NCBI RefSeq assembly: GCF_040183065.1
Contig: NC_091120.1
Span: forward strand, 14,401,208-14,465,207
Reading direction: 5' to 3'
Source of the DNA: Periplaneta americana
Taxonomy: Eukaryota; Arthropoda; Insecta; Blattodea; Blattidae
DNA length: 64,000 nt
The notes below the pieces were generated by a model, which was given only the letters and a program-made list of their open reading frames with translations, ran no database searches and had not been told where the DNA came from. Made by a program: the position numbers and the translations under genes. This document shows, in pieces, positions 20,436 through 59,050 of the stretch (positions within the stretch are counted from its first letter, which is position 1; each line of letters opens with the position of its first letter).

Positions 20436-20807
20436 CTATGTCGCCGGAGGCTCCTTTTCTTCTGTTTTAGTTTCAAATTCTTGATCCAGTCTTTCCTTGG
20501 CACGAACTACCTTAGATTGGAGGTAAAATGACCCCCCTTTAGTTTTGTCATTTGCATTAAAAAGATATTCATAATTTTTCTTAATCAATTCTGGATCCAG
20601 TTTGTCAACATTTAATATTTGCTGTGCTTCTTCTACAGTGATACCAGTTCTTGCATTCGCTGCAGCACGACTTGCTCCTTTCTGGCCTCCTCCTCCACGT
20701 CTTGCAGCTTCTTGACTTGCAGCAAATTCTTGACGTAATGCTCTTGCAAAGGCACGCCCAACAACTTGGGTTCCCAGTATAATTATCTGCGCCACGTACT
20801 TTGCCAT
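20436..20807 (-). CDS. PAM16: PAM16 / Magmas (TIM16), presequence translocase motor subunit
   Basis: 123 residues starting [20 protein letters not shown], the conserved hydrophobic start of animal PAM16. It continues ALRQEFAAS and a Gly/Ala/Arg linker, then the J-like domain: [39 protein letters not shown] and [17 protein letters not shown]. Human PAM16 is 125 residues, so this is full length. PAM16 is bound to the matrix face of TIM23 and pairs with the J-protein PAM18 to control mtHsp70 during import. Its J-like domain lacks the HPD motif (DKT here), as expected. An upstream in-frame ATG at 20840 would add 11 residues; I chose MAKYV because it is the family start. The gene is in one exon, whereas most animal orthologues I know have introns. 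The 3' side shows no A-tract that would prove a retrocopy. Confidence 0.95.
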
Positions 20808-20899
20808 CGTAGATAAAAATGGCTTTATAACAATCCACAAAACGAAAAAGTTTTCACTGCATAACCTAAAATTTTCGCTCGCATCATCATGGACCTGAT
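20808..20899 (-). promoter_or_regulatory. Probable PAM16 5' UTR / proximal promoter
   Basis: Only 92 bp separate the PAM16 ATG from the tip of an 87-bp TIR. No TATA box is obvious. The TIR itself contains a CRE-like palindrome TGACGTCA at 20942-20949, so the PAM16 promoter may partly lie in transposon DNA. Inference only. Confidence 0.35.
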
Positions 20900-21769
20900 C
20901 ACTGCCATCGTGATCTAGACCAGGCCGTAATACAGGATGTGTGACGTCACTCGTTGAGTCGGGCTTTTCTATTTGAGTATACGGAGTTGGGTTAAATAAT
21001 TCAGATTTGTGAGGAAATAGAAGGCGGTACTGAATAGCTGCTACTTCAGGATTTAGGATATCTTACCTGGATTATACAAATAGATTTCATCAGCAACTGG
21101 AAATTATATAAGTTAATATCGAGTCCTGTCTTCCTATACTTATTTTTTTTTAAATATGGGACATGACAGTTAAGCGGCCGAGCTTGGAACTACAGTGCTA
21201 TGTTGCCAATATGGACTACCACACTGCCAGCTGATGGATGTTAGCAATTGACGTTAAAACATTCATTGACAATTGACGCGAATGTAAAAAAAAAAAAAAA
21301 CATAAAAATCGACAGAGAATCAAAGACGAAACGTTCCAATATTAACATTGTGTGCACAATAAATGTTGTCAAGTGAGCTATTAAGCACTCGTCACTTGGG
21401 AACGGAAGTTTGGCAACTCAACTGTCGTTACCATAGCAACAGACCTGCCACGCTATGTGGCATTCAGTTGTTTTTCCGATCGCAACTCTCCTGTCATGTC
21501 CCATCTTTCAAAAAAACAAGCATAGTCACTAAACTTTGTCACTGTATTCACTGAGATTGGTTGAAAATAAAACGGGTTTACTTGATAATAGGATATCGTT
21601 ATTGTTTTTATGAGAATTTGTGTTGGCTAGATTTTAGAATGGAGTGATGTGATATTATGACGTCACTTTTTGGATGGAAGTGGTTAGGTTGGTAGATATG
21701 TAAATTTTGTTCGTGGCTGTTGGTATTCATGAGATTTGAATGGCGTACCGGTTAAGGATGTGTTTGGAT

Positions 21770-33279: not shown

Positions 33280-34228
33280 CTTGCTTCCCCAATAAATTCT
33301 TGCATCACGAGACTTGCAGTTTTATCAACACCTGCTAAAATATTTGAATCATTAATATATATAAACAAATTTATACTTATGTAGCAAAATCAATTTCACA
33401 TGATCAACATGGGTTTATGATTGGAAGATCAACTGTTACAAATTTACTACATTTCACTCAATTTGTTTCAACCCAACTAGATAATAAATTACAAGTTGAT
33501 GTTATTTATACAGATTTTCAGAAAGCATTTGATAAAGTTGACCATGATATTCTTTTATTAAAATTGAAACAATCTGGATTTTCTTTCTCATTGCTATCGT
33601 TAATTAAATCTTACTTGAAAGGAAGAGTACAAGTTGTGAACTTTCACGGACATACTTCTAAGCCTTTTACGGTAAATTCTGGTGTGCCTCAAGGATCCAA
33701 TCTTGGTCCATTATTGTTTTTATTGTTTGTTAATGATATTGTGAATTGTGTACAACATTCTAAAATTTTATTATTTGCGGATGATATTAAATTGTATAAA
33801 GAAATCAAAACTATATCAGATTGTAAGCTACTTCAAACAGATATTACAAACTTACATATTTGGAATATTAATAATAAATTGTTATTTAATATTAATAAGT
33901 GTATACATATGACCTTTTCTAGATTGAAAAATACAATTAAATTTTCATATAAAATAGAGGCAAAAGTTTTACCAGCAGAAAATGAACATAAAGATTTAGG
34001 TATATTATTTAGCAGTAATTTTACATTTCATAGTCATATTAATATTATTATAAATTTTTCCTATAAAAGTTTAGGTTTTGTTATGAGAAATGCTTGTAAT
34101 TTTAAAGTCAAAACTATAATAATTTTGTATAATTCCATTGTTCGATCTAAATTAGAGTATGCTGCTGTTATCTGGAACCCAGTTACTAACAAATATATTC
34201 TGTTACTAGAAAAAATTAAAAACTTTCT
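33280..34228 (+). pseudogene. CR1/Jockey-like LINE reverse transcriptase, truncated at both ends
   Basis: It starts in one frame with RLAVLSTPAKIFESLIY, shifts near 33370 to TYVAKSISHDQHGFMIGRST, then stays open. RT motifs are VDVIYTDFQKAFDKVDHDIL (motif A), SGVPQGSNLGPLLFLLFVND (B) and KILLFADDIKLYKE (C, catalytic FADD). Then come WNINNKLLFNINKC, KDLGILFSSNFTFHSHI and VRSKLEYAAVIWNPVTNK. At 34229 it passes directly into a SINE tail, so its last 35 residues as translated are SINE-derived. Endonuclease and true C-terminus are missing. The catalytic site is intact but the protein is incomplete. Confidence 0.87.
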
Positions 34229-34328
34229 GTGCTGGACCCCGGACTCATTTCACTGGCATTATCACCTTCATCTCATTCAGACGCTAAATAACCTGAGATG
34301 TTGATAAAGCGTCTTAAAATAATCCAAT
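34229..34328 (+). mobile_element. 5'-truncated SINE tail fused to the LINE
   Basis: TGCTGGACCCCGGACTCATT, then CATTCAGACGCTAAATAACC and GATGTTGATAAAGCGTC match the 3' part of the SINE at 45671. It begins without a tRNA head right at the LINE break. Confidence 0.8.
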
Positions 34329-42699: not shown

Positions 42700-43500
42700 G
42701 TGTCCAGTATGAAATTTTCCAAAAAAAGTATAACCACGACATCACAACTTTCAACAAACAAGAAATACACACAGGACAACGATTTAGAGAATTTATAACC
42801 AATATAGAAGAACAGGAGACCAACACAATACAGATATACACCGACGGATCCGAATCCAATGAGGGCGTGGGGGCAGCCTACGTAAACACGACAGTGGAGG
42901 TAGTGGAAAAATCAAACTTCATCATCAATCATCCATTCGTACAGCAGAATTATTTACAATACGGCAAGCTCTGCTTTCAGTCAAAAACCTTACAGGAAAG
43001 CACTTCCTCATCTTTGTGGATTCCCTCAGCACCATAGAAAAAGTAAAGAACAACAACCTATCAACGAAAACTCCCTGGATAGTAATAAACATCAAACAGC
43101 TGATGCATAATCTAGGAAAACAGAATAACATAAAACTAATATGGATACCAGGTCACAAAGGGATTCAAGGAAACGAGACTACAGACTCAATGGCAAAAGC
43201 AGCCATAACAACCAGTTTGCTCGCACCAGTAAATATCCAGGTCCCTGACTTAATAAAACACATCAGGTAAACGACCACAGAAGTCACCCAGACAGGCAAA
43301 CCACGGTATTTACCAAAAAAAACTAACGCTTCCATTCATATCGGTTATCAACAAACTTAAACACAATGCAGCCATAACCCCAAAATACCTACACCTCATT
43401 GGAAGGGGGGGGAATAGCCATTGTGCGAGTGTCACAAACAGCCAGGAGAAATAAATCACATGTTCTTCCAATGCCAACTACCGTACATAAACAACAGGAG
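42700..43500 (+). pseudogene. RNase H domain and C-terminus of a non-LTR retrotransposon
   Basis: Frame 3: REFITNIEEQETNTIQIYTD, then GSESNEGVGAAYVN, the first RNase H aspartate block. After a shift near 42965, frame 2: ALLSVKNLTGKHFLIFVDSL (catalytic Asp) and NIKLIWIPGHKGIQGNETTD, then SMAKAA (His and final Asp). A Cys-rich tail CECHKQPGEINHMFFQC follows at 43425-43480. RNase H after the RT is typical of I/R1-type LINEs. The RT itself is not present upstream. Confidence 0.82.
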
Positions 43501-43910
43501 TACATCGAGAAAAATCCTCTGTCGTAGTTCCAGTGCAATGAGTTGACAGCGAAATGAGTGTAATGTTGAAAGGTACTTGTGCAGATATGAACATATCATA
43601 CTCGTGGGTTTTAGTTCGATCTTAGTTTTAAGATACAAATTAGAATATTTCGAATGTTATTTTAAGTGATCATTTCATTTAATTTAGTATATTCCCTGTT
43701 GTTGTTGTTATTATCATTGTCATTATTGAGTGTAATTAGTTACCACTGCCACCGGGTATATACCCATTGCAGTGTGAATAAATACATACATACAAATCCG
43801 TCCTGATCTGGCCCAGGATCGAATTCATGCCACCTGTGTTGAAGATCACTTGAGCCTCAGATGCAGTGTCTACCGTGCATGTCAATGTTTGACTCAGGTC
43901 TTACTCTCAG

Positions 43911-43982
43911 GCTGTAGAATTTTATTTTTAAGCTATAAGTATCACTACAGATTTAATATTGTGTTGTATAAAATCATCACCA
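43911..43982 (+). other. Candidate non-coding exon type c, copy 1
   Basis: Acceptor CTTACTCTCAG precedes it and donor CCA/GTAAGT follows. The 72-nt sequence is nearly identical to 46299-46370. Confidence 0.45.
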
Positions 43983-44031
43983 GTAAGTTTCAGATAATGT
44001 CAGCTATTCATGTCTGAGGTTCAGACATGTA

Positions 44032-45156
44032 TCGTGCGTTTTTTTTTAAAGCGCTTCAGTAAAGCACTTCATGCCTTTGCTGCAGCAAAATGAGAGTCGA
44101 AAAAAACGTAAGTAGGTCAACTGACTGCAAAATGGTGGACAATTAATATTGGCTTCTATTTCTGCCGTAATAAATTTAACCCTAAAAGAACCGAACATGT
44201 TAAATAGTTTCGACTTCTATGATAATGACATGGAATTATTATTACTAGACGATTTTAACAATAATAAACGTTGCAAAAGACCAGATATGGAGGGTAGCTG
44301 CGAATATATTGAATAATCAGTCGTGGACAGCCGATAAGGGGTGGTCCTCCAGCTTGGGGGTTGGGCGAAGGGCTAACAACCCATCACCGTAAAAAACAGC
44401 TTGTTACGTATCCCTATAATAAGAATAAATATGGGAAACGCGTGTTATTATTCGGTTGAGAAGCTCTTATCATCTAGTCTGCTGCCCAAAAATCTGAAAG
44501 TTAGAATTTATAAAACAGTTATATTACCGGTTCTTCTGTATGGTTGTGAAACTTGGACTCTCACTCTGAGAGAAGAACATAGGTTCAGGGTGTTTGAGAA
44601 TAAGGTGCTTAGGAAAATATTTGGGGCTAAGCGGGATGAAGTTACAGGAGAATGGAGAAAGTTACACAACACAGAACTGCACGCATTGTATTCTTCACCT
44701 GACATAATTAGGAACATTAAATCCAGACGTTTGAGATGGGCAGGGCATGTAGCACGTATGGGCGAATCCAGAAATGCATATAGAGTGTTAGTTGGGAGAC
44801 GGAGGGAAAAATACCTTTGGGGAGGCCGAGACGTAGATGGGAGGATAATATTAAAATGGATTTGAGGGAGGTGGGGTATGATGATAGAGACTGGATTAAT
44901 CTTGCTCAGGATAGGGACCACTGGCGGGCTTAAGTGAGGGCGGCAATGAACCTTCGGGTTCCTTAAAAGCCATTTGTAAGTAAGTAAGTATGCAAAAGAC
45001 CAAAACACACATTCTGTCATGATGGATCGTGCAGCAAACTTGTAAAGCGAAGTTTTGATTTGCTGCACGGTTGCTACAGCGACGGTGAAGCAAATGTAAT
45101 AAAAGAATGGTCTTGCTGCAGCGCTTTACATCTTGCTTTAAAAAAAAACACATGGG
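44032..45156. mobile_element. TIR transposon inserted in unit 1, with TA duplication and an empty site in unit 2
   Basis: The ends TCGTGCGTTTTTTTTTAAAG(C) and, reverse complemented, CCCATGTGTTTTTTTTTAAAGC are flanked by TA (44030-44031, 45157-45158). The duplicate unit at 46415-46430 has the uninterrupted site (ATATGTAGTCATAG). It contains a LINE; without it, about 415 bp remain, including FDFYDNDMELLLLDDF-like sequence that may be a transposase N-terminus. Confidence 0.85.
44284..44990 (+). mobile_element. Internally deleted (TAAG)n LINE with 12-bp TSD
   Basis: An exact 12-bp duplication TGCAAAAGACCA (44272-44283, 44991-45002) bounds it. It begins with the 5' head shared with 28577 and jumps at about 44423 to INMGNACYYSVEKLLSSSLL of the ORF. 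It then runs to the end of the ORF and TAAG tail. The frame has a shift at about 44800 (GRRREKYLWGG instead of GRPEGKRPLGR). RT catalytic motifs are missing. Confidence 0.92.
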
Positions 45157-45200
45157 TAGTCATAGTGTTATGTTCTATTGAAGTAATTGAGTGGACTGGA

Positions 45201-45265
45201 CCAGTGATGAAAGAATATGTGTTATGAGAAAAATGATTTTTCTTACATGCACTACCAACTGAGGC
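45201..45265 (+). ncRNA. C/D-box snoRNA-like RNA, copy 1
   Basis: C box GTGATGA, D box CTGA (45259-45262), closing CC/GG, guide ACATGCACTACCA before the D box, internal C'-like ATGATTT. It ends 56 nt from the exon because the pyrimidine tract of the following acceptor is shortened by 24 nt compared with copy 2. It may thus be less efficiently processed. Confidence 0.68.
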
Positions 45266-45321
45266 ATTGCTTCCATCAATACTGACTGCATTAATTTGTT
45301 TTAACATGTTGAAGTTCCTAG

Positions 45322-45370
45322 TCAAATCCAGTATACAGATGATGATACTTGGAGATTGACTTTTTCTCAG
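45322..45370 (+). other. Candidate exon type a, copy 1 (weak acceptor)
   Basis: Matches exon a at 46605-46654. The donor TCTCAG/GTAAGAA is intact, but the acceptor is reduced to TTCCTAG. Confidence 0.4.
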
Positions 45371-45670
45371 GTAAGAAATTTTTATTGAACTTGAATATAA
45401 TTATTTCATTTTCAGACATTGATAGCCAAGCCAAGGAGAATATTCTGCACAGATCCGGATGAGTGGACACAGACGATTGTGAGACATTGAAAATAAAGTA
45501 CAGAGACTGGTGGGCAGGTGTGTCCATAGGAATGCTGTGCGAAGCATTTTTTCTACACCTCAGCCTGTAAGTTAAAGAGACATATTTGAAATCTTCATCA
45601 TAGGTGAGATGTGATGTAGTTTCCGGTTCCTCAGATTACATGTAGTGCATCTCATTTTGAATTTATCAGT

Positions 45671-45900
45671 CGGCTAGTGCATCTGGCTGCGAAACCAGGT
45701 GGCCCGGGTTCAATTCCTGGTTGGGGCAAGTTATCTGGTTGAGGTTTTTTCCAGGGTTTTCCCTCAACCCAATATGAGCAAATGCTGGGTAACTTTCAGT
45801 GTTGGACCCCGGACTCATTTCACCATCATTATCACCATCTCATTCAGACGCTAAATAACCTAGATGTTGATAAGGCATCGTAAAATAACCTACTAAAAAA
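45671..45900 (+). mobile_element. tRNA-derived SINE with TSD
   Basis: Box A-like GGCTAGTGCATCTGGCTG, box B GGTTCAATTCC, then GTTATCTGGTTGAGG, GGACCCCGGACTCATTTCAC and the GACGCTAAATAACC tail. The flanking TTATCAGT (45663-45670, 45901-45908) is the target duplication. Confidence 0.88.
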
Positions 45901-45987
45901 TTATCAGTTTTTTTTACAAGTAATGAAGTTCTGATAACACAGTTCTACAATGAAAAAAAATTGAGAGCTTTTTGAAATCTAATAACT

Positions 45988-46104
45988 TACTTACTTACAA
46001 ATGGCTTTTAAGGAACCCGAAGGTTCATTGCCGCCCTCACATTAGCCCGCCAGCGGTCCCTATCCTGTGCAAGATTAATCCAGTCTCTATCATCATACCC
46101 CACC
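45988..46104 (-). mobile_element. Strongly 5'-truncated (TAAG)n LINE with 10-bp TSD
   Basis: Only the last about 117 bp (ORF end plus tail) are present. TCTAATAACT is duplicated at 45978-45987 and 46105-46114. Confidence 0.9.
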
Positions 46105-46298
46105 TCTAATAACTGATTTTGTATATTAAAACTGTATGGATTACAGAAATGACTTCCATTTTCCTGTATCACATCCCAATTCTAAAAAATTATATATAAT
46201 ACAAATCTTTATAACATGTTTAAATTGACAGAGCCACAGCTGCAGTGTCATCATGGTCTACCTTGCATGTGAATGTTTGACTCAGGTCTTACTCTCAG

Positions 46299-46370
46299 GC
46301 TGTAGAATTTTATTTTTAACCTATAAGTATCACTACAGATTTAATAATGTGTTGTATAAAATCATCACCA
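46299..46370 (+). other. Candidate non-coding exon type c, copy 2
   Basis: Acceptor TTACTCTCAG, 72 nt, donor CCA/GTAAGT. The intron from 46371 to 46604 (234 nt) contains snoRNA copy 2. Confidence 0.5.
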
Positions 46371-46460
46371 GTAAGTTTCAGATAATGTCAGCTATTCATG
46401 TCTGAGGTTCAGATATGTAGTCATAGTGTTATGTTCTATTGAAGTAATAGAGTGGAGTGG

Positions 46461-46525
46461 GCCAGTGATGAAAGAATATGTGTTATGAGAAAAATGATTT
46501 TCTTACATGCACTGCCAACTGAGGC
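46461..46525 (+). ncRNA. C/D-box snoRNA-like RNA, copy 2
   Basis: GCC stem, C box GTGATGA, D box CTGA, GGC. The guide reads ACATGCACTGCCA, with one A-to-G change from the family, so this copy alone may have a weakened guide. It ends 79 nt upstream of exon a at 46605. Confidence 0.72.
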
Positions 46526-46604
46526 ATTGCTTCCATCATTACTGACTGCATTAATTTGTTTTAACATGTTGAAGTTCCTACCTACGGTACTTATTTATTT
46601 TTAG

Positions 46605-46654
46605 GTCAAATGGAGTATACAGATGATGTTACCTGCAGATTGACTTTTTCTCAG
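46605..46654 (+). other. Candidate exon type a, copy 2
   Basis: Acceptor TTATTTATTTTTAG, 50-nt exon containing TACAGATGATGTTACCTGCA, donor TCTCAG/GTAAGAA. No conserved reading frame. Confidence 0.5.
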
Positions 46655-46739
46655 GTAAGAAATTTTTATTGAACTTGAATATAATTACTTCATTTTCAGT
46701 CACTGGTAGCCAAGCTTTTACTTTCATAAGTAATTGTTC

Positions 46740-47700
46740 AAGAATTAAAACAGAAAATCAATATCCCGAATTTAAAAGAAAACTTACAAATTAAACCAAA
46801 CCCTTTAACTCTATTAAATATAGAATATAATCTAAATTTAACAGAAGAAATACTGAAATCAGAAGTAAACACTGAAATAACGAAACAATTGTCTTTAGAG
46901 ACAATTAATATTAGGTACCCTCCACCAAACTGGCTTCATTTATACACCGACGGATCCTTGATCTCCAGAGAACAAGGTGCCGGCGCAGGTGTTACGTGCT
47001 GTCTCTTCTCACTCTATAGATCTCTTGGATATGGAACAACAAGTTTTGATAGAGAAATCATTGCAATAAATGAAAGTCTCAGGAATCTTCTATGCCACAT
47101 CAATAAATTTAGGAATGCAGTTATATTGTCAGACTCCAAAGCAGCTATTCTATCAATCGTCTCTAAACACACACCTTCATCTCAAACAGCAGAAATAACC
47201 AAAATGCTCTCTCAATTAATATCACTCAATAAAAGAATTGTATTCCAATGAATACCATCCCATTGTGGAATCCTGGGAAACGAGAATGCGGATGCTTTAG
47301 CAAAGAAGGGCAGCACTGCTACTTACAGACGTGTTACTAAATCTACGTATTACTCTGTGAAAAGATTTATTAAATCTACATACTTAGACTTCAACAAACA
47401 AAATTTGATAACACAATCTCAAGGGAAAAAATGGAACTCTCTGCATCATAATCCACAGTTAATTCCCGATTTACCACGAAAATCGTCTGTAGCTGCATTT
47501 AGATTGGCAACAGGCCATGATTGTTTGGCCAAACACCTGCGTAGAATTGGAATATATCAGTCCCCTAACTGTCCATTGTGCAACTCAAACCAGAAATGGA
47601 TTCGGAACACCTCAAAATCTGTGCTTCAGTGGCTGGCCATGATAATATCTTTGAAAAATATTGGAGTGCAAGAGGTCAAATGACTTTATTGACTTTATAT
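46740..47700 (+). pseudogene. RNase H and C-terminus of an I/R1-like LINE, one stop and one shift
   Basis: Open from about 46750: LKENLQIKPNPLTLLNIEYN, NWLHLYTDGSLISREQGAGA (first Asp), TTSFDREIIAINESLRNLL (Glu) and NAVILSDSKAAILSI (Asp). A TGA at 47249 replaces the Trp of WIPSHCGILGNENADALAKK. The C-terminus AAFRLATGHDCLAKHLRRIG and CPLCNSNQ follow. A shift near 47595 moves the final EMDSEHLKICASVAGHDNIF to another frame. The last part, also present at 61955-62040 on the minus strand, shows that family members are dispersed. It lies between snoRNA units 2 and 3. Confidence 0.87.
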
Positions 47701-47748
47701 GGTATTAGTGGTAATCATGTGTTCTATTGAAGTGATTGGGTAAGCTGT

Positions 47749-47814
47749 GCCAATGATGAAAGGATATAGATAGATGATAGAAATGATTTTCCTACATGCA
47801 CTACCAACTGAGGC
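47749..47814 (+). ncRNA. C/D-box snoRNA-like RNA, copy 3
   Basis: GCC stem, C box ATGATGA (still RTGATGA), guide ACATGCACTACCA, D box CTGA, GGC. The D'/C' region differs most (AGATAGATGATAGAAATGAT). It ends 75 nt before exon a at 47890. Confidence 0.74.
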
Positions 47815-47889
47815 ATTGATTCCATCATTACTGATTCCATTAATTAATTTTTAACATGTTAAAGTTCCCATTTACTCGTTTATTTTCAG

Positions 47890-47938
47890 GTCAGTACAAT
47901 ATACAGATGATGTTACCTGCAGATTGATGTTTTGTCAG
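47890..47938 (+). other. Candidate exon type a, copy 3
   Basis: Acceptor CGTTTATTTTCAG, 49 nt, donor GTCAG/GTAAGAAG. Its intron runs to 49961, carries two retrotransposon inserts and snoRNA copy 4. Confidence 0.5.
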
Positions 47939-48385
47939 GTAAGAAGTTTTTATTGAGCTTGAATATACTTATTTCATTTTCAGGAACTGATATCAAAGTT
48001 TTTATAAGTTTTGTTATGGAAATGGCTACTGTACTGTATTTTCATTTGGTGTAGAAACATCTTTCTGGAAGATAGTGACACTGCTTGCGAGGTTTTCTTT
48101 GAGATGTTACTTTTTTCTGTGTTTTGATTTTCTGAATTTAAAAAAAATTGTGTTTTAAGAGCCGCCAGTTGTACTCTGTTTTGTTAATACTTCGAAGCCC
48201 AAATCCAACTGTCATTTATGCTTGGTGCAGTTGTATGAAGTGGGTGACTGAAGAGTCCAACTTGGACTGACATTGAAATTTAATTTCTTTGTGTTCATAC
48301 AGGGCTTTTTACTCTGTGAAGACGTAGCGTTCTATGAATATTTCATGATACTTGTGTGATTGATGCTAACATCTGAGTGAGATGT

Positions 48386-48404
48386 CTTATGCTTTTAGCA
48401 TAAG
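48386..48404 (+). other. Conserved hairpin module in the host intron (copies at 53215-53237 and 56233-56255)
   Basis: CTTATGC-TTTTA-GCATAAG is a perfect 7-bp stem. The two paralogues keep a stem with changed bases (GCCTTA...TAAGGC). The surrounding about 130 nt (ATTCATATTTGGTAGCAGAC) are also shared. A structured RNA such as an H/ACA snoRNA is possible, but I cannot fit the H and ACA boxes. Confidence 0.4.
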
Positions 48405-48532
48405 GCCGCACAGTACACTGATTCATATTTGGTAGCAGACAGTATGATTGCATCACATTCATCATGTGTTTATTCCTTCTGACGTCAAGACTACAGATTA
48501 TTTGTAATTGCAGTTAGTGTTACAGCAGACAT

Positions 48533-48883
48533 TTTGGACCCAAAATTTATAATGCATTAATCAGAGTTTACCCTGAGCTAAGTACACTTAACACACATAG
48601 ATTCAAGAAACAAATCAGATTAATTATTTAATTGTTTAAGCTAATTGAGTTAAAAATTGATACTCTAATATTCATGTACTTTTGTATTTTCTATTTGTAT
48701 ATAGACCCTATTACTATATGCTGTAAGTATTTTACCACTTAGTAATGTTATTGTGCTCAATGAACTCTCTTAATTTTGTGATATATTTTGTATAACTGAT
48801 CTGAACTGCGCCCGAGCATGAGCTTCTGCTCTTTCGGGCTGCAGTGTTTAGTATTAAATAAATGAAATGAAATGAAAAAAAAA
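48533..48883 (+). mobile_element. LINE (CR1/Jockey-like) 3' end, same family as 18448
   Basis: SRHFGPKIYNALIRVYPELS, then TLNTHRFKKQIRLII and a stop, then the 3' UTR with CTGAACTGCGCCCGAGCATG and an ATGAAATGAAATGA-A(n) tail. The paralogous intron at about 53385 lacks it, giving an empty site. Confidence 0.85.
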
Positions 48884-49006
48884 ATGTTCTGCATGATTGA
48901 AAGGATACTTTGACTATGGCTATTAAACTTCTAGTCTCATTGAGGGTCCTTTAATATTAACTAAAAAGATGGCCATCTGCATTGCATCTTGACAGCTATA
49001 ATATTA

Positions 49007-49533
49007 CTTACTTACTTACTTATTGGCTTTTAAGGAACCCGGAGGTTCATTGCCACCCTCACATAAGCCTGCCATTGGTCCCTATCCTGAGCAAGATTAA
49101 TCCAGTCTCTACCATCATATCCCACCTCCCTCAAATCCATTTTAATATTATCCTCCCATCTACGTCTCGGCCTCCCCAAAGGTCTTTTTCCCTCCGGTCT
49201 CCCAACTAACACTCTATAGGCATTTCTGGATTCGCCCATATGTGCTACATGCCCTGCCCATCTCAAACGTCTGGATTTAATGTTCGTAATTATGTCAGGT
49301 GAAGAATACAATGCTTGCAGCTCTGCGTTGTGTAACTTTCTCCATTCTCCTGTAACTTCATCCCTCTTAGCCCTAAATATTTTCCTAAGAACCTTATTCT
49401 CAAACACCCTTAATCTCTCTTCCTGTCTCAAAGTGAGAGTCCAAGTTTCACAACCATATAGAACAACCGGTAATATAACTGTTTTATAAATTCTAACTTT
49501 CAGATTTTTTGACAGCAGACTAGATGACAAAAT
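49007..49533 (-). mobile_element. 5'-truncated (TAAG)n LINE with 15-bp TSD
   Basis: The duplication ACAGCTATAATATTA is at 48992-49006 and 49534-49548. The minus-strand frame from 49530 to 49030 is open: SSLLSKNLKVRIYKTVILPV ... RRLRWAGHVAHMGESRNAYR ... AAMNLRVP-like end (here VAMNLRVP). It lacks RT catalytic motifs. The paralogous intron (about 53500) has the empty site. Confidence 0.93.
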
Positions 49534-49820
49534 ACAGCTATAATATTAGCAAGTAATTTGGAATTGTAAGTGTACTTGGGAATTTTATAGCATAAGAGGT
49601 AAAAAATTGTGTAGATGCTATGAATGTAAACTTTTTCCTTGCATTTTCAACTATGTCTTGATTGTACCTATGCAGAGTAAAATATTACCATGGCAACTAA
49701 AACTTGCGATTAAGCAAAGCCTGTATGGTATAGTCAAAAAACAAGGTAGGCTACAATAAAAATGTAAGGAAAAAGTTTTTGATGTCATTGTATCAGGTGC
49801 TGTTTGTGATGAAGTCTTTA

Positions 49821-49890
49821 GCCAGTGATGAAAACGTGAAGTATGTAATGAGGAAAATGATTTATATTTACATGCACTACCAGCTGAGGC
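49821..49890 (+). ncRNA. C/D-box snoRNA-like RNA, copy 4
   Basis: GCC stem, C box GTGATGA, D'-like ATGAG, C'-like ATGATTT, guide TTACATGCACTACCAG, D box CTGA (49884-49887), GGC. It ends 71 nt before exon b at 49962. The outer TTAG/CTAA can extend the stem. Confidence 0.78.
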
Positions 49891-49961
49891 ACTAATAGCA
49901 CTACAAGAAAATAGTACTTGCTCATTTTATGTTTGAATAGCAATAATTCTTTTTGTTTCAG

Positions 49962-50042
49962 ATGAAATAATGTGAACCAGCTATGCAGAAATGGAGAAAT
50001 ACGGTGCAAAGGATAAGTCGAGTTTCGATGTACATGCCCAGA
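49962..50042 (+). other. Candidate non-coding exon type b, copy 1
   Basis: Acceptor TTCTTTTTGTTTCAG, 81 nt, donor AGA/GTAAGT. It starts ATGAAATAATG, so the first ATG is stopped at once. Copies at 54597-54677 and 58179-58258. Confidence 0.55.
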
Positions 50043-50216
50043 GTAAGTTGATGAGGCTAAGAATATGCTTAATCTAATGCGGAGTGTTCAACCAATCCCT
50101 CTACAGGTAAAATCTAATTCTTAAGGTTCACCTGTCAATGAAGGAGAACTTACTACTTCAGTACATTAATTACAGTTTTTCTTAAGTCTCGTGTGTCTTT
50201 ATAAATGAACAAATAT

Positions 50217-50385
50217 GACCTGAATTTAACACAGCCAATTGAAGGAAAAGTGCATAGTACATTAAATATAATTTTTTTTTGTTCCAGTCCAAATTTTAAC
50301 TACAATTTTCAATATATATCAGTACATAATTATTTTCATAATTTATATTTATTGAAAATTCATGTTAAATTAGGGACAGGGCTTG
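50217..50385 (+). repeat. Duplicated segment X, copy 1
   Basis: GACCTGAATTTAACACAGCC, then AAAGTGCATAGTACATTAAA ... ATTAGGGACAGGGCTT is repeated at 52407-52605. No function recognised. Confidence 0.8.
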
Positions 50386-50599
50386 TGGCAACGTGTGTGA
50401 AAATTTGAAAGTCCTGTGTGTAATAGAAGCTGAAAAAAATTGCATTTTGTAGGATAAAAACCAAACTTACAGAAAAACGTTCAAATAATTCAAAATATTA
50501 AAACTTTTATTTTCATTCAAAATATTAAACCTTTTTTGTCATATATATTGTATACTATAATAGTTTCATATATTGAATACTGTAATAGAGAAAAAAATA

Positions 50600-51344
50600 A
50601 GTTGCAATTATTAAAAAATGCTCCCTGTGACTGTACAGATGTACCCCGTCCTAATCCATAGCCTACACCGTTTCATGGTACCGGTCCCATCTCGACTGTA
50701 GTCTGCTCCAGGGGCGGCTAGTCATGTTCACCGATCAATGGGGGGTTCAAACCCTCTCCATGTCACTGGTTAGATGCTAACAGTTTCTGAGCGGACCACA
50801 GCCACCCAGCAGGCACGTCCATCAGCCACAAGTAGGCTACCGAGGTCTGGCCATACCCCGGTTTTGCCTTAACTTGCATAGTGCGCAGATTGTGTATATA
50901 TAGTTAAAGTTAGTCAACGCGTACTACTCGCAAGCAAATGTTGCAAATTTTCTGTTGTATATACGGTATTTTCTTACATATTGACACCTAACCTATATAT
51001 TTCCCTACTAAATGAGACTGTGCTAAATTATCAATACATATGATCAAAATATAGTGAAATAACAGCTATAGAAAATATTTTTTGCTACAAAACTAATTCA
51101 CTGGTACGACTGAAAGTTTGGTAGAATAATTATATTTCATGATTCCTCTTATTCCACTCTTACTTATATCTTTATTTTCCATTCATTACTGTTAGCATTA
51201 TTATTTATAAAAACAAACATGGCCAAATGTCACGCTGCCATTCGAAAGATTCCACAGGCTTGAAAATAAATGGCAAGTGCAATAAGTCCGAGAAGGAAAA
51301 GAGTGCTGTTTTTCATAGAATGACAAATTTCTTATGTTTGACAG
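50600..51344. other. Non-coding, with a G+C-richer repeat-like block
   Basis: 50640-50880 is G+C-richer and contains GGGGTTCAAACCC, which resembles a polymerase III box B but lacks a convincing box A. No gene seen. Confidence 0.4.
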
Positions 51345-51594
51345 GGAATTCGTGGTCGCCTGTGGTGTTCTGTCACAATGACCTGCAAGAGGGAACATGT
51401 TGCTTCGACTAGATGGGGAGGAATCGCAAGTCTCTCGGCCCAAACTCGTCATTATAGACTTTGAATTTTGCTGCTACAATTACCGAGGTTTCGACTTAGC
51501 CAATCACATGTGCGAATGGGTATATGACTACAGCAACGAAGAGTCTCCCTACTTCTGGGCCTCTCATGAGAACTTCCCGTCGCTCAAAGAACAG
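51345..51594 (+). pseudogene. Choline/ethanolamine kinase exon with a 1-bp deletion
   Basis: After an acceptor (TTCTTATGTTTGACAG), the frame reads NSWSPVVFCHNDLQEG. It shifts by one base near 51391-51396 and continues NMLLRLDGEESQVSRPKLVI, IDFEFCCYNYRGFDLANHMC and EWVYDYSNEESPYFWASHEN, then FPSLKEQ, to the donor CAG/GTAAAC. HNDLQEGN is the phosphotransferase (Brenner) motif with the catalytic Asp. IDFE...YNYRGFD..NH.CEW is the choline-kinase motif with the metal-binding Asp. The exon ends where vertebrate choline kinase has ...KKQQ. Choline kinase makes phosphocholine in the Kennedy pathway. No other exon of the gene was found. The exon sits on the same strand as the snoRNA units. It is an orphan duplicated exon, or a real exon with a sequence error. 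Confidence 0.85.
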
Positions 51595-51689
51595 GTAAAC
51601 TTACTAGAATAACATAATAACAATATACATTTTTTGTTTACCAAAATGATGCGAGTAATATACTATACTCGTATTTCCTTATATATGGA

Positions 51690-51724
51690 AATGAACCTCC
51701 GGATTCCTTAAAAGCCATAAGTAA

Positions 51725-51727
<3 letters not shown>
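51690..51727 (+). mobile_element. (TAAG)n LINE, 3'-terminal remnant
   Basis: AATGAACCTCCGGATTCCTT then AAAAGCCATAAGTAAG is the last about 35 bp of the LINE. It runs into an (AT)n tract at 51728-51770. Confidence 0.75.

Positions 51728-51770
<43 letters not shown>
51728..51770. repeat. (AT)n microsatellite
   Basis: About 21 AT units following the LINE tail. Confidence 0.93.
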
Positions 51771-51772
<2 letters not shown>

Positions 51773-52077
51773 ATAAAGGAATCTGGAAGCTTTGGTATAA
51801 TAAAATATGTAAAAAAGGTTATTGGAACATAAATTATTAGAATGGCTTCATTGTTACGTTAATTATAATGGTTCTAAGATGAGAGAAAAACATGCGAGAG
51901 AACTGAATAGTCGAAGACTTGGCGAGACTAGACTTCCTAGTTTATGTAGAGTCACTCTGATTGAAACATATTGACAGATATGTTAGTACAGTACAGTATT
52001 GTTGAAGCAAGGAGGATAGAGAGGGGCAACAAACGATATCATTATTGTTGAATGAAATAAGTTTAGCAAGCGACGTT

Positions 52078-52292
52078 TAATTTAACTGATAAAATTCTGG
52101 AAGCTATTAATAAAAAATTACAAGTAGGAGTGATATTCTGTGATCTCTCCAAAGCTTTTGATTGTATTAACCATAAAATTCTACTACAAAAATTAGAATA
52201 CTATGGTATTAAAGGCATAACATATCATTGGTTTGAGTCATATCTCCTAAACAGAAAACAAAAAGTTGAAATCAACGCATTTAATAACTCCT
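52078..52292 (+). pseudogene. LINE reverse-transcriptase fragment (motif A region)
   Basis: LTDKILEAINKKLQVGVIFC, then DLSKAFDCINHKILLQKLEY, YGIKGITYHWFESYLLNRKQ and KVEINAFNNS. DLSKAFD is RT motif A of CR1/Jockey-type LINEs. Motifs B and C are missing; both ends break into unrelated DNA. Confidence 0.78.
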
Positions 52293-52406
52293 TTAAGGGG
52301 ATCCGGTACGTCCTATCTTGGCTATATTAAAATCATTATTTTTCATGCAGCTTTTCTCAGAAACTGGTAGTAGTAGGCACTTGATTTTTTTACACGTTGT
52401 TACATA

Positions 52407-52605
52407 TACTGACCTGAATTTAACACAGCCAATTGAAGGAAAAGTGCATAGTACATTAAATATAATTTTTTTTGTTCCGGTCAAAATTTTAACTACAATT
52501 TTCAATATATATCAGTACATAATTATTTTCATAATTAAGATTTATTTTATTTTCATAATTAAGATTTATTGAAAATGTCATGTTAAATTAGGGACAGGGC
52601 TTATT
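52407..52605 (+). repeat. Duplicated segment X, copy 2
   Basis: Same as 50217-50385, with an extra internal tandem duplication (TTTTCATAATTAAGATTTAT twice). It runs directly into an exon-b-like segment (ATGAAATGATG from 52645). Confidence 0.8.
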
Positions 52606-52644
52606 CATTTTATGTTTTAACAGCAATAATTTCTTTTGTTTTAG

Positions 52645-52785
52645 ATGAAATGATGTAAATCAGCCATGCAGAAATGGAGAATTACAGTATATTACATTCT
52701 CCAAAGCCACATTCAACTTCTTACGTCTTCCAATTTTGGGGTTTCCTTCAGATTCCTGTTCAGATTCAGACTGATGTTTTGTCAG
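52645..52785 (+). other. Partial exon b and partial exon a joined
   Basis: 52645-52690 matches the start of exon b (ATGAAATGATGTAAATCAGC) behind an acceptor TTTTGTTTTAG. 52765-52785 matches the end of exon a with its donor (TGATGTTTTGTCAG/GTAAGA). The middle differs. Rearranged copy at the start of duplication block B. Confidence 0.5.
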
Positions 52786-54596
52786 GTAAGAAGTTTTTAT
52801 TGAGCTTGAATATACTTCTTTAATTTTCAGGAACTGATATCAAAGTTTTTATAAGTTTTGTTATGGAAATGGCTACTGTACTGTATTTTCATTTGGTGTA
52901 GAAACGTCTTTCTGGAAGATAGTGACGCTGCTTGGGAGGTTTTCTTTGAGATGTTACTTTTTTCTGTGTTTCTGAATTAAAAAAATGTGTTTTAAGAGCC
53001 GCCGGTTGTACTCTGTATTGTTAATACTTCGAAGCCCAAATCCAAGTGTTATTTATGCTTGGTGCATTTGTATGAAGTGGGTGACTGAAGAGTCCAACTT
53101 GGACTGACATTGAAATTTAATTTCTTGCTGTTCATACAGGGCTTTTTACTCTGTGAAGACGTAGTGTTATATGAATATTTCATGATACTTTTGGTGCTAA
53201 CATCTGAGTGAGATGCCTTATGGTTTTAGTGTAAGGCAGTACTGTATACTGATTCATATTTGGTAGCAGACAGATATACGATTACACATTATATTAGCAT
53301 AGCAGACAGTGTGATTGACTCACATTTTTGGCGTGTTTATTCCTTCTGATGTCAAGACTATAGATTATTTGTAATTGCAGTTGGTTTTGTACATGATTGA
53401 AAGAATACTTTGACTATGGCTATTAAACTTCTAGTCTCATTGAGGGTCCTTTAATATTGACTGAAAAGTGGTCATCTGCATTGCATCTTGGCAGCTATAA
53501 TACTAGGAAGTAATTTGGAATTGTAAGTGTACTTGGGAATTTTTATAGCGTAAGAGGTAAAAAATTGTGTATATGCTATGAATATAAACTTTTTCCTTGT
53601 ATTTTTAACTATGTCTTGATTGTACCTATGCAGTGTAAAATATTACCATGGCAACTAAAACTTGCGATTAAGCAAAGCCTGCATGGTATAGTCAAAAAAC
53701 AAGGTGGGCTACAATAAAAATGTAATGAAATAGTAATATGCGTTACAAGATCGGTATGTTGACGTTTTCATGTTCGAGGAAAAGATTGAAAAAGCAAAAC
53801 GTAATTGAAACAAACATACCGCTCATGTATTGTACATTATTTTGTGCGAAGATCGTTTATTACTTACCTGAAAGAGGAATTTCTAATTAGTTGCAATGAA
53901 ATCTCAATCTTGGTTTCTGTTCAATGACGGCAACTTTGGAAAACAAATATATCTATCTTCAACATTGTTCCTATAAAATGTTTTCTGTGTTTACTATACT
54001 GCAGCAGGCCGTGATATACGTCTGTCTTTTTTTTCCCCCAGTCTATGATGAGTCTGGAATCTTGTTGATTTTTTCACAGCTTCCTTAATATTACTTGCAT
54101 TACAAATGCTGTAACTTTTGTGGTGTTGTAGAGTTTACTTAAATTTTGCAAATATTTACAAACAATAATTAACAGTGCAATTTAGGTGAAATTGCAGTGG
54201 TAAGTTTCCAGTTTATAATTATTACTATATTGAACGTCTTTAAAAATAATATGTTAAAAGCCTAAAGCAGTAAAATGAATATGACGCTTAAGCGGTAAGA
54301 ATAGGGAAATTATGTGTGTTACGTTGGGAATACTGAATGTGGTATTTCACACTTACCACGTATTGGTTTTGTGTGGAAAGCAAGCAAATACGCACAATCT
54401 CACACAAAAGTTTTTGATGTCATTGTATAAGGTGCTGTTTGTGATAAAGTCTTTAGCCAGTGATGAAAACGTGAAGTATGTAATGAGGAAAATGATTTAT
54501 ATTTACATGCACTACCAGCTGAGGCACTAATAGCACTACAAGAAAATAGTACTTGCTCATTTTATGTTTGAATAGCAATAATTCTTTTTGTTTCAG
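52786..54596 (+). repeat. Duplicated host intron, block B (paralogue of 47939-49961)
   Basis: Colinear with block A from GTAAGAAGTTTTTATTGAGC to the snoRNA. It lacks the two block-A retrotransposons and has about 675 bp (53727-54400) not seen in block A. I recognise no terminal repeats on that extra piece, so a deletion in A is as likely as an insertion in B. Confidence 0.82.
54456..54525 (+). ncRNA. C/D-box snoRNA-like RNA, copy 5
   Basis: Identical to copy 4 over the 70-nt core: C box GTGATGA, guide ACATGCACTACCAG, D box CTGA. It ends 71 nt before exon b at 54597. Confidence 0.78.
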
Positions 54597-54677
54597 ATGA
54601 AATAATGTGAACCAGCTATGCAGAAATGGAGAAATACAGTGTAAAAGACAAGTCGAGTTTCGGTGTACATGCCCAGA
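54597..54677 (+). other. Candidate non-coding exon type b, copy 2
   Basis: Same acceptor and donor as copy 1; a few substitutions (AAATACAGTGTAAAAGACAA) break any shared frame. Confidence 0.55.
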
Positions 54678-55060
54678 GTAAGTTGATGAGGCTAAGAATA
54701 TGCTTAATCTAATAGGGTGTGTTGAACCAATCCCTCTACAGGTAAAGTCTAATTCTTAAGTTTCATTTTCACCTGTCAGCGAAGGAGAACATGGTACTAC
54801 TTCAGTACATTAATTACAGTTTTTCTTAAGTCTCGTGTGTCTTCATAAATGTACAAATATGGTACTACTCAGTGATTGTGACAATTTTGTAATGGAGATA
54901 TTTACCCTTACTAATAGAAGCACTGAAATGTTATTGTGCCAGATTTGTAAATTATTCTCATAAGTGATTGGAGTGAGGAAGGGAGCATGACAAAGTGACA
55001 CTCATATGCAGGCTTTCCCATGCCTGCACTAGTTCATAGAAATAATATTCTTGTACTCTT

Positions 55061-56095
55061 TCTTCTATTGTTGTTACAAGAGGTTTAATGTCTGTGAGGT
55101 AAAGCATACAGTTAATGGGAATAGATTTCACTCCTCCTGTGATAAGTCTGAGTGCCTGGTTTTGTACTTTGAAAAGTGGGTTTAGTGTAGTTTTTGGTGC
55201 AGTGACTAGAGGTTCACAGCAGTATAGAAGACTAGGCTCAATATACATCTTGTAGGTTGTTACTAGTGTTTGTCTTTTGGATCCCGATGGCTCGAAAACA
55301 GACCCTCAAGGAAATGTAGGAGCTGGTATTTTTAGTAATCTTTTTTGCTTCTATCTCCCAGTTGGTTATAATCTATCTGCCTATGATGGAGAAATTGAAG
55401 CTATACATGTTGCCTTAAATCAACTTTTATTCCATATGGATAAATTCACAAATGCCGTCATCCTCTCGGACTCAAAAGCAGCCATTTTGTCCATAAATAA
55501 AACTGATCACCCCTACACAGAACAAATCAATAATTGTCAAAAAATTCTTGCAACTTTAAAAGAACGTGGCAAAACAGTTTTGTTACAATGGATCCCAGGA
55601 CATTGTGATTTACATGGGAATGAACAGGCTGAAGGATGCCAATCTCAGAATAAACCCACGGAAACCTTTGTCATTTAACTCAGTACAACAATATATCAAG
55701 CAACTACAAAAAAATAATCACCAACAAGAACTGGACATTAACATTTTGAACAACGTAGGAAATTACTGAAGGATATACCTCCTGAACCCAGAAGACTGGC
55801 AGTTGCAAGCTTTCGTCTTAACACTGAACATGACATCCTGGGTAAACACCTCAATCGTCTTGGCATCTTCCATCAGTATCGTGCATTTTGTGCCATCAAC
55901 AGGAAGACATGGATAGACAACATCTTGCAAAATGCCCTGCTCTGAAATCCTCCAAGGAAGTCGACCGCTACTGGGAAGCCAGAGCCCAAATGTTTTTAAT
56001 TACTTAATCCGTAGTTTTGTTCACCACTTTCTTGTTTTTCCCCCAGTCAATGATAGTAAATATCATGTACTAGCCAGTAGACAAATAAATAAATA
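55061..56095 (+). mobile_element. I/R1-like LINE insertion with 5' inversion (twin priming) and 17-bp TSD
   Basis: The flanking 17-bp duplication AATATTCTTGTACTCTT lies at 55044-55060 and 56096-56112. 55061 to about 55265 encodes the RT C-terminus on the minus strand (YKMYIEPSLLYCCEPLVTAP, FKVQNQALRLITGGVKSIP). From about 55266 the plus strand encodes the adjacent RNase H. The tail is AAATAAATAAATAA. Opposite orientation of neighbouring parts of one element is the classic 5'-inversion structure. Confidence 0.82.
55274..55950 (+). pseudogene. RNase H and C-terminus of the inverted LINE
   Basis: LDPDGSKTDPQGNVGAGIFS (YTDGS-type block), YNLSAYDGEIEAIHVALNQL (Glu), NAVILSDSKAAILSI (Asp) and VLLQWIPGHCDLHGNEQAE. 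After a shift near 55630, KDANLRINPRKPLSFNSVQQ and, after more shifts, RRLAVASFRLNTEHDILGKH and LNRLGIFHQY. Same domain order as 46740-47700 but diverged. Frameshifts kill it. Confidence 0.82.
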
Positions 56096-56472
56096 AATAT
56101 TCTTGTACTCTTAATGTGGATGTAATAATATTAGGTTGCAGTTCATGGAAAGTGATATGAGAATGTTAGAGGCAATATGATTCTAATTTGTATTTTTTTC
56201 TATTATTTATTTTCACACAGGATCAGAGAGTTGCCTTATGCTTTTAATGTAAGGCAGTATGGTACATTGAATCATATTTGATAGCAGGCAGTTAAAACTA
56301 TACATTAACATAACAGGTAGTGTGATTGCATCATATTCTTCACGTGTTTATTCCTTCTGATGTAAAGACTATAGATTATTTGTAATCATAGTGTGCTGTT
56401 TTACATGACTGAAAGAATACTTTACCTATGACTATTAAACTTCTAGTCTCATTGAGGGTCCCTTAATGTTAA

Positions 56473-57879
56473 GGGGAGAGGATGGTATTTTTTTGGTGAA
56501 AAATGAGTAAATTAAAAAAAAATCTTTAAAATACCGTGTGATATGTGTGGAGTGCATAGTGTAACATTTTGTGGGTATTTGTGCCCTTATCTGATGTTGA
56601 GACGTCATTTTTAAACTTCCTGCGCTATGGATTTTTAAATCACATGCCCCCTTTATCGGTTTCCAGTAACTTCATTTTTTTTGCTACATTGCCGGACAAA
56701 AATGGATATAATTTGTGAACTATTAAAGATACATGCATGAAATTTAGAACACACATTCTTTAGATTATTAGGAAACTTTTCTCTGTAACAAAATTTTTTT
56801 AATTGATTTCATTTTAAAAATACATCCGTTTGTTTGCAAGAAAGGAAATCAGAAAATTGTTATTAAATTTTAATTGTTTATTTTACAAACGTAGGGACTA
56901 ATATCAAAATTCTGTTACAGACAGTTTGTAGAACATGCTTTTGCAAATACATTGCAAAAAACTGTTTGAATCTATCTTTAAAAACGGTTCAGATATATCG
57001 GTTTTAGTACAATCCTGCATTTGGTATATTTTTTCAAATTTGGGCCCCCAAATATGATATGATATATATATATTTCGTCACAGCACTTCTTTACATGTAA
57101 TGGTGTACCTCACATTTCTGTATCCGGTGCCACCATTAATATATTATTACAATAACACATTATTTGCAGTACACGTCTACACACATACTCTCAATTCCGC
57201 TATGTACCTTTTTTTATTACTTGGTCAATCTCCCCTTCAGTATTTCCCTACCTTTCATTTGCTATTCTCTATTTGTTCATTAATCCTAATATATCTAATA
57301 TTATATACTCCTTTCACACCCCCCTTTTCCTCTAACTACTATTCACTAAAATCTCAATTTCAATTTTTCTCTATAAATTATCATATTGAATTATTTGTCT
57401 ATTTGTTCTTTGACCTTTTATTCAATTACTGTTCCAACATTCAAATGTTAGTACTAATTTTTGCGCTCACTTTAACTTTCACACTATTCTGCTTACACCT
57501 AATCCATTGTCACTATTCTCACTTCCTATAAATACTTATATTTTATTTTACACATCTGCTTATACATTATCTCTCTCCCCTATACTTCTCGATCTTTTCC
57601 AGTTTCACTATACTTGCACTTTTTGATCACAACCCCACTTTTTTTTTACACATATCAAATATCTCTGCTAAATCCTCAACTGTCGCAAATTCTGACCTTT
57701 CTTTACTGTTCGTCTCTGCCCTGTTTCTGACTTTGTCTTTGGCCCCCAAATATATATATATTTTTTTTCAAAATATTTTTATTTGGTTGAGTTGCCACAG
57801 CTATGAGCTCTCTACATACAAAAAATTAATATTTTACACCAAATATGAAAAAAGTTTTAAAGAATACCATTCTCTCCCC
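56473..57879. mobile_element. 1.4-kb TTAA-flanked element with an empty site in block A
   Basis: Tips GGGGAGAGGATGGTATT and, reverse complemented, GGGGAGAGAATGGTATT are flanked by TTAA (56469-56472, 57880-57883). Block A has a single TTAA-like site there (TATTAACTAAAAAG). piggyBac-type target choice. It contains the G-poor insert. Confidence 0.9.
57056..57740. other. G-depleted, strand-asymmetric insert flanked by a 13-bp direct repeat
   Basis: GGCCCCCAAATAT occurs at 57043-57055 and 57741-57753. Between them, the 480 nt from 57181 to 57660 contain by my count about 23 G against about 122 C. On the minus strand it would be C-poor and end in an AT-rich repeat (TATATATATATCATATC) next to the TSD, so a retroposed copy read on the minus strand is possible. 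The 143-residue plus-strand frame is a by-product of composition. Confidence 0.6.
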
Positions 57880-58037
57880 TTAACTGAAAAGATGGCCATC
57901 TGCATTGCATCTTGACAGCTATAATATTAGCAAGTAATTTGGAATTGTAAGTGTACTCGTGAATTTTATGACGTAAGATGTAGAAAATTGTGTAGATGGT
58001 ATGAATGTGTGAGGTGCTGTTTGTGATCGAGTCTTTA

Positions 58038-58107
58038 GCCAGTGATGAAAACGTGAAGTATGTAATGAGAAAAATGATTTATACTTACATGCACTACCAG
58101 CTGAGGC
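58038..58107 (+). ncRNA. C/D-box snoRNA-like RNA, copy 6
   Basis: GCC stem, C box GTGATGA, guide CTTACATGCACTACCAG, D box CTGA (58101-58104), GGC. It ends 71 nt before exon b at 58179. Two substitutions relative to copies 4 and 5, both outside C, D and guide. Confidence 0.78.
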
Positions 58108-58178
58108 ACTAATAATACTATAAGAAAATAGTACTTATTCATTTTATGTTTTAACAGCAATAATTTCTTTTGTTTCAG

Positions 58179-58258
58179 ATGAAATGATGTAAATCAGCCA
58201 TGCAGAAATGGAGACTACAGTGTAAAGAACAAATCGAGTTTCGATGTACATGTCCAGA
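58179..58258 (+). other. Candidate non-coding exon type b, copy 3
   Basis: Acceptor TTCTTTTGTTTCAG, 80 nt, donor AGA/GTAAGT. Downstream, CCATTGTCTACAGT occurs twice (58304, 58364) and AATAAA lies near 58430; this may be the last exon region. Confidence 0.5.
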
Positions 58259-58440
58259 GTAAGTTGACGAGGCCGCATGTTGCCAGTGTGCTGACGAGTT
58301 TGCGCCATTGTCTACAGTACATCTACACAGTGACTTCACTTGACCTTCGACATTAATGCTCCCATTGTCTACAGTGTACTTCAATGTTCAGTGGGAACAA
58401 ATATAATGTATTTGTTGAATGTAATAATAATAAACCAGCT

Positions 58441-59050
58441 CAATTTAATTTTTTTTTAAATCAATCACCCTCCTCTGTGTTGAACATATGGAATGCAAAT
58501 GTGGCTCTGGCTTTTATTTTGCTTCCGTTATCTTGGCACCTTCTTGAATGCCTTCTCAACATAAGATCCTGACGAATGTATCATAGAAGATGTTAACAGT
58601 GCAGCACTTCTGGAATTGTCAGATATCTCATAATAGTGCCATCACAGACTACTGCCATATTCTGAGCAAAATCAACAAACATCGTAATGTTAGCTAAACT
58701 TGCAGATTTAGATCTTTATTTAGAGTGCCTTTATTATTGGAGGCTTCAGTCTTGAGGTGCTATATCATCAGGTTAGTAGGTCTATTAATTAGAAATACCA
58801 TGACAGTAGCTTGAAATTAAATGATCGGGACTATTGTTGAGGTGCCAAATCATGGTATTCGATAAAACCGCGAATTTACAAGCATTTAAGCAAAGAATAT
58901 GAGATGCCAGCCATTACTTTTATGCCTGATATCAAAATCAAATGTTTTCAGACATCTTACATCCTCCATGTCAAAGTGTGTTAATGATTAATTGAACATA
59001 ATGTTTCTGAGTCTAAATTTATTGTCGGTATGGTAACAGCGAGTTTTTAT
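58441..59050. other. Non-coding stretch
   Basis: No gene or element boundary recognised. Confidence 0.45.

Follow-up and report, generated by a model that had tools for sequence, protein, structure and literature searches.

Non-coding host genes for small nucleolar RNAs (snoRNAs) are known from mammals, with GAS5 and UHG as examples. Passages of one report name Uhg1–Uhg8 as non-coding snoRNA host genes of Drosophila (PMC13228274), and for intronic box C/D snoRNAs the passages of another place the optimum at ~70 nucleotides (nt) from the 3' splice site (PMC8178906). In the passages of PMC3511168 that deal with these guides, human U33 (Um1326), Arabidopsis snoR34 (Um1270), and yeast snR55 (Um1267 in that paper) form one clan, CL00054, with one target site, and five of the eight families of the clan are said to be older than the last common ancestor of eukaryotes. 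SNORD33A is assigned to 18S-U1326 in a passage of PMC6466398. Here we analyzed a window of 64,000 nt from Periplaneta americana (assembly GCF_040183065.1, contig NC_091120.1, positions 14,401,208 to 14,465,207; coordinates below count from the first letter of the window) that holds six short, related elements. These are very probably paralogous C/D guides of the SNORD33/U33 (snoR34, snR55) type, each predicted to lie in an intron of a single host gene that is expanded in tandem and probably non-coding. We base this reading on the family match, the register on the predicted target, the spacing to splice sites, the duplication pattern, and the constraint on the elements.

An earlier note on this DNA, made from its letters alone, had described six elements of 65–70 nt, each with a C box, a D box, a closing stem, and a shared guide that one copy carries with a single change. 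All six are present on the + strand where that note had placed them, and this description was borne out in every copy, with the guide exact in five. Copies 1–3 are named here A1 (45201–45265, 65 nt), A2 (46461–46525, 65 nt), and A3 (47749–47814, 66 nt), and copies 4–6 are B1 (49821–49890), B2 (54456–54525), and B3 (58038–58107), each of 70 nt. The C box reads GTGATGA in five copies and ATGATGA in A3, and the D box CTGA is present in all six. The closing stem is short, GCC/GGC (three pairs) in five copies and only CC/GG (two pairs) in A1. The guide is ACATGCACTACCA in all copies except A2, which reads ACATGCACTGCCA. A simple scan of the window for RTGATGA followed by CTGA, starting 42–103 nt after the C box start, returned 10 pairs on the + strand and four on the − strand, of which six + rows and two − rows had a stem of at least three pairs. 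These + rows represent five of the six elements, with B1 counted twice through a second C-like start and A1 missed because of its two-pair stem, and this filtered scan of the window found no + strand place besides the known elements; the two − rows come from a duplicated segment, one from each of its copies. A sequence model derived from the six copies recovered the same six at 66.4–77.9 bits, a partly circular result given that these are its own training set, and its next match was an AT-rich stretch at 4577–4628 (15.3 bits, E = 0.0012). Together, the sequence features support the elements as intronic box C/D snoRNAs.

The earlier note could match these elements to no snoRNA that it could name, and here our analysis departs from it: both the guide and the distance that separates it from the D box match SNORD33/U33. 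An Rfam search of the window at the gathering threshold gave no matches, and a tRNA scan of the window gave none. In a permissive search of positions 43000–59000, a covariance search with C/D snoRNA models of the kind the note had named as a check, all six copies matched RF00133 (SNORD33/U33), although below its gathering score, with 33.5–36.7 bits and E-values of 0.0017–0.01 that refer to these 16 kilobases (kb). Individual scores were 33.7 (A1), 33.5 (A2), 35.1 (A3), 36.7 (B1 and B2), and 34.6 bits (B3). The matches span the full model, positions 1–85 of 85, in all six copies, and the alignment takes in CAUGCACUACCA, with one change in A2, and CUGA, both matching the model consensus. The same permissive search in the control region 1–42999 yielded no match to RF00133 even at E-values of up to 10, and the sole C/D snoRNA match there had an E-value of 0.13. 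Matches to mir-297, MH_s25, and PVX_3 in 43000–59000 were treated as chance, as was a match to mir-6095 within the array (53737–53836, E = 0.019, 31.4 of 100 bits). Given that the gathering threshold was not reached, we word the assignment as kinship: judged by their common guide and predicted target, the elements are relatives of the SNORD33 clan, not family members by the curated threshold, and by the features tested (guide, register, and boxes) they resemble SNORD33 in their mode of work. Scores below the gathering cut-off would also be compatible with an orphan family of C/D snoRNAs directed at a new target, the reading suggested in the earlier note. We regard such a family as very unlikely, since guide, distance to box D, and predicted target all agree with SNORD33.

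Pairing with 18S ribosomal RNA (rRNA) was tested on a eukaryotic rRNA contig of 7 kb (L003) and not on the 18S rRNA of P. americana; two further contigs, L001 and L002, contain the same 18S target stretch. On L003, the guide pairs with TGGTGGTGCATG of 18S rRNA through 12 uninterrupted pairs in all six copies, including one G-U pair, or two in A2. The fifth base upstream of box D lies opposite the target U in every copy, and this U sits in TGG-U-GGTGCATG, with human U1326 as its equivalent. The guide base at this position is A in five copies and G in A2, resulting in a G-U pair at the predicted methylation site that may weaken methylation by this copy. The sequence of the D' region differs between subfamilies A and B. 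We also found the guide pattern at two places in viral contigs L004 and L005, where the ~80 bases before the guide hold no C box, and these were treated as chance. L003 comes from a metagenome-assembled genome record labelled Coleofasciculus; it has eukaryotic 18S, 5.8S, and 28S rRNA and is likely a contamination of a bacterial genome bin.

A pyrimidine-rich candidate 3' splice site lies 71–79 nt past the snoRNA in five of the six copies, and leads into a short predicted exon with a strong donor at its end. On the + strand, the predicted host exons are A2 at 46605–46654 (50 nt, 79 nt after the snoRNA; donor CAG before the junction and GTAAGAAAT after it), A3 at 47890–47938 (49 nt, 75 nt after; donor CAG and GTAAGAAGT), B1 at 49962–50042 (81 nt; donor CAGA and GTAAGT), B2 at 54597–54677 (81 nt), and B3 at 58179–58258 (80 nt), with the last three each 71 nt after the snoRNA. 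The acceptor of A1 is degenerate and has lost its pyrimidine tract, with a candidate AG at 66 nt and a position of 56 nt indicated by alignment to A2; the same alignment gives the start of an exon relic at 45322–45370 (+, 49 nt), which lacks the tract of A2 and keeps its donor (CAG and GTAAGAAAT). Predicted exon B has a stop codon in all three frames of each of its three copies (9 of 9), so that with these limits it could not be an internal coding exon, and the host is probably non-coding. An AATAAA at 58429–58434 (+) is a possible polyadenylation signal of the host transcript. The expanded, non-coding host of the earlier note, from whose limits we took an extent of 14.6 kb, is supported as probable by the 3' splice site spacing in five of six copies, the exon B stops, and this AATAAA, and we consider it probably a tandemly expanded non-coding gene of the UHG/GAS5 type.

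In the mechanism that we propose, the host would be transcribed by RNA polymerase II and spliced, and a small nucleolar ribonucleoprotein would assemble on each intron ~70 nt ahead of the 3' splice site. After debranching, the intron would be cut back by exonucleases as far as the GCC/GGC ends. In the nucleolus, the stretch immediately preceding box D would pair with TGGTGGTGCATG of 18S rRNA, and fibrillarin would methylate the U five bases from box D, equivalent to human 18S U1326. Given the damaged acceptor of A1 and the changed base facing the target U in A2, perhaps four copies would be fully competent in this process.

The array consists of duplicated intron–exon segments. In blastn comparisons, 47920–48521 matches 52767–53388 and 49771–50217 matches 54406–54861, and parts of these appear again in 56225–58273. 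At 52600–52851 (+), a relic unit joins the first part of exon B to the last part of exon A, and no snoRNA lies upstream of it. B1 and B2 are identical in sequence, which fits a recent duplication. This pattern bears on a rival explanation, in which one or a few copies are active (perhaps A3, those of subfamily B, or another one elsewhere in the genome), the majority are silent duplicates or pseudogenes in decay, and the number six is functionally meaningless. Such an explanation, which is compatible with the assignment to the SNORD33 family, would account for the A1 acceptor without a pyrimidine tract and its stem one pair shorter, the G opposite the target U in A2, the unit at 52600 without a snoRNA, and the identity of B1 and B2. 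However, the C box, D box, and guide were spared where inner positions vary, and functional parts were kept between subfamilies whose flanks differ about as much as random 70-mers do. We consider widespread silence among the copies a genuine possibility, although less likely than not.

Variation among the six copies is unevenly distributed. In the six-copy alignment, with gaps taken as variation, 2 of 24 columns vary in the C box, D box, and guide, 1 of 6 in the stem, and 20 of 39 in the inner part; the difference between the first and the last class has a one-sided Fisher p of 0.0004, with column classes picked after the alignment was seen. Between subfamilies, the snoRNAs are 83–95% identical over ungapped columns, and their flanks reach 61–83% in global alignment versus 69% (standard deviation 7) for random 70-mers. 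Of the 15 pairs, which are not independent of one another, 11 have higher identity in the snoRNA than in the flanks at a one-sided p below 0.05. When A1 and A2 were compared with B1–B3 by blastn, similarity covered the snoRNA, reached a single base beyond it, and went no further into the flanks, and A3 versus B1–B3 gave no row among the matches listed at E 1e-6. These results agree with two points of the earlier note: subfamilies with unalignable flanks, given that between-subfamily matches end at the snoRNA, and selection on the C box, D box, and guide, which the column counts make likely. We conclude that selective constraint on the RNA is likely, although not proven.

The restriction of the A–B similarity to the snoRNA plus one base could also have arisen if one subfamily derived from retro-insertion of a snoRNA into another intron, in which case the unrelated flanks would say little on selection. 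Given that both subfamilies lie at a nearly equal distance (71–79 nt) from the likely 3' splice site, and that the sparing of functional columns is independent of the flanks, we find this origin rather unlikely. A chance occurrence of C/D-like motifs in an unrelated tandem repeat would fit the location of the elements in duplicated DNA, but is barely conceivable, as the family match, target register, and splice-site spacing concur and the flanks diverge while the motifs do not. Beyond the interpretation as SNORD33-type guides in one expanded host, a bolder one would see two long-separated SNORD33 paralogues, each amplified in one non-coding host and kept in this lineage by selection for high dose or stage-specific output of this 18S methylation guide, with A2 tuned to bind without efficient methylation. 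We judge this to be quite unlikely.

Several observations weigh against the SNORD33-type reading. All RF00133 scores are under the curated gathering score of 44 bits, one to three of the six RF00133 stem pairs are nonstandard in these copies, and A3 also has weak matches to SNORD24, SNORD70, and SNORD47 (E = 0.81–2.1). A low E-value is by itself no proof, given that the control region gave a low-complexity match to mir-297 at E = 0.00076 (40.1 of 90 bits). Composition-shuffled guides matched somewhere in L003 equally well in 7–13 of 300 trials, indicating that pairing length alone is weak evidence and that the assignment leans on the family match and on the register at a known site. Three to four candidate acceptors lie within 200 nt of each copy, and the spacing stands without a chance control. 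Predicted exon A is 49, 50, and 49 nt long in its three copies, each of which leaves one frame open, and is uninformative on coding. Finally, four of the 15 pairs compared for snoRNA and flank identity miss a p of 0.05 (A2–A3, A3–B1, A3–B2, and A3–B3), all of them with A3.

Other features were detected within and around the array. RNase H pieces interrupt it at 46730–47248 (+; E = 2.3e-05, slightly short of the Pfam cut-off) and 55256–55675 (+; E = 3.4e-08), and a reverse transcriptase piece lies outside it at 33348–34301 (+; Pfam E = 1.9e-22). One repeated stretch, probably a transposon piece, occurs at 44467–44990, 45982–46106, and 49003–49530 in both orientations and with 90–97% identity. 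Its copies in both orientations form long inverted repeats inside the array, and the one copy scanned (44377–44862) had no Pfam match. Between B1 and B2, 51342–51597 (+) encodes part of a choline/ethanolamine kinase (PF01633, E = 1.6e-18 for 51400–51594), with splice-like sites on its flanks by our own reading; its HNDLQEG part is frame-shifted relative to the rest, which points to a pseudogene piece or a sequencing error. A conserved block at 48340–48540, 53171–53400, and 56190–56420 keeps a GCCTTA/TAAGGC-like hairpin in three copies. The joint fold of these three sequences had 46 pairs, three of them changed on both sides, and a covariation term of −1.09 kcal/mol, which does not suffice to propose a second RNA; the block may be an H/ACA RNA or an exon. 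Elsewhere in the window, the open frame at 20439–21062 (−) encodes the domain of Pam16/Magmas, a mitochondrial import motor protein (PF03656, E = 5.3e-44, profile positions 1–118 of 127).

By its sequence, the array is a familiar thing in multiple copies and not a new RNA, namely an expanded SNORD33-type guide within one host. Its elements share with SNORD33/U33 (RF00133, clan CL00054), which lies in introns of human RPL13A, the C and D boxes, the guide CAUGCACUACCA immediately before box D, and the U in 18S as predicted target. They differ in being shorter, 65–70 nt compared with a model of 85 positions, and in being six. No ribosomal protein gene was recognized around the array, and no search was aimed at one. 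Flies have several named copies for this 18S site (Me18S-U1356 a to c). A literature search by name for a fly orthologue returned nothing usable, and the passages on Uhg genes do not state that these host a U33 orthologue; a search for such a locus found none by title among the papers listed, and we do not claim that the array is unpublished. Arabidopsis snoR34 and yeast snR55, which have the same target site and clan as U33 in the passages of PMC3511168, are likened to these elements by clan and target and not by sequence.

As to what the locus means, a supposedly unknown snoRNA family now appears to carry one of the oldest rRNA methylation guides. The array offers a clean example of a C/D snoRNA multiplying together with its intron and exon in a single host, probably non-coding, into which transposons have inserted, and its copies seem to have decayed to different degrees. 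Like Drosophila Uhg and GAS5/UHG, it has apparently non-coding exons and introns that each hold one C/D snoRNA a short way ahead of the 3' splice site, but in the P. americana array all six recognized snoRNAs are of one family. Copy gain by recombination within the host is shared with the human C/D snoRNA families described in passages of PMC8178906 as having copies in one host gene; those are other families in another lineage, and the two subfamilies with unalignable flanks are P. americana's own.

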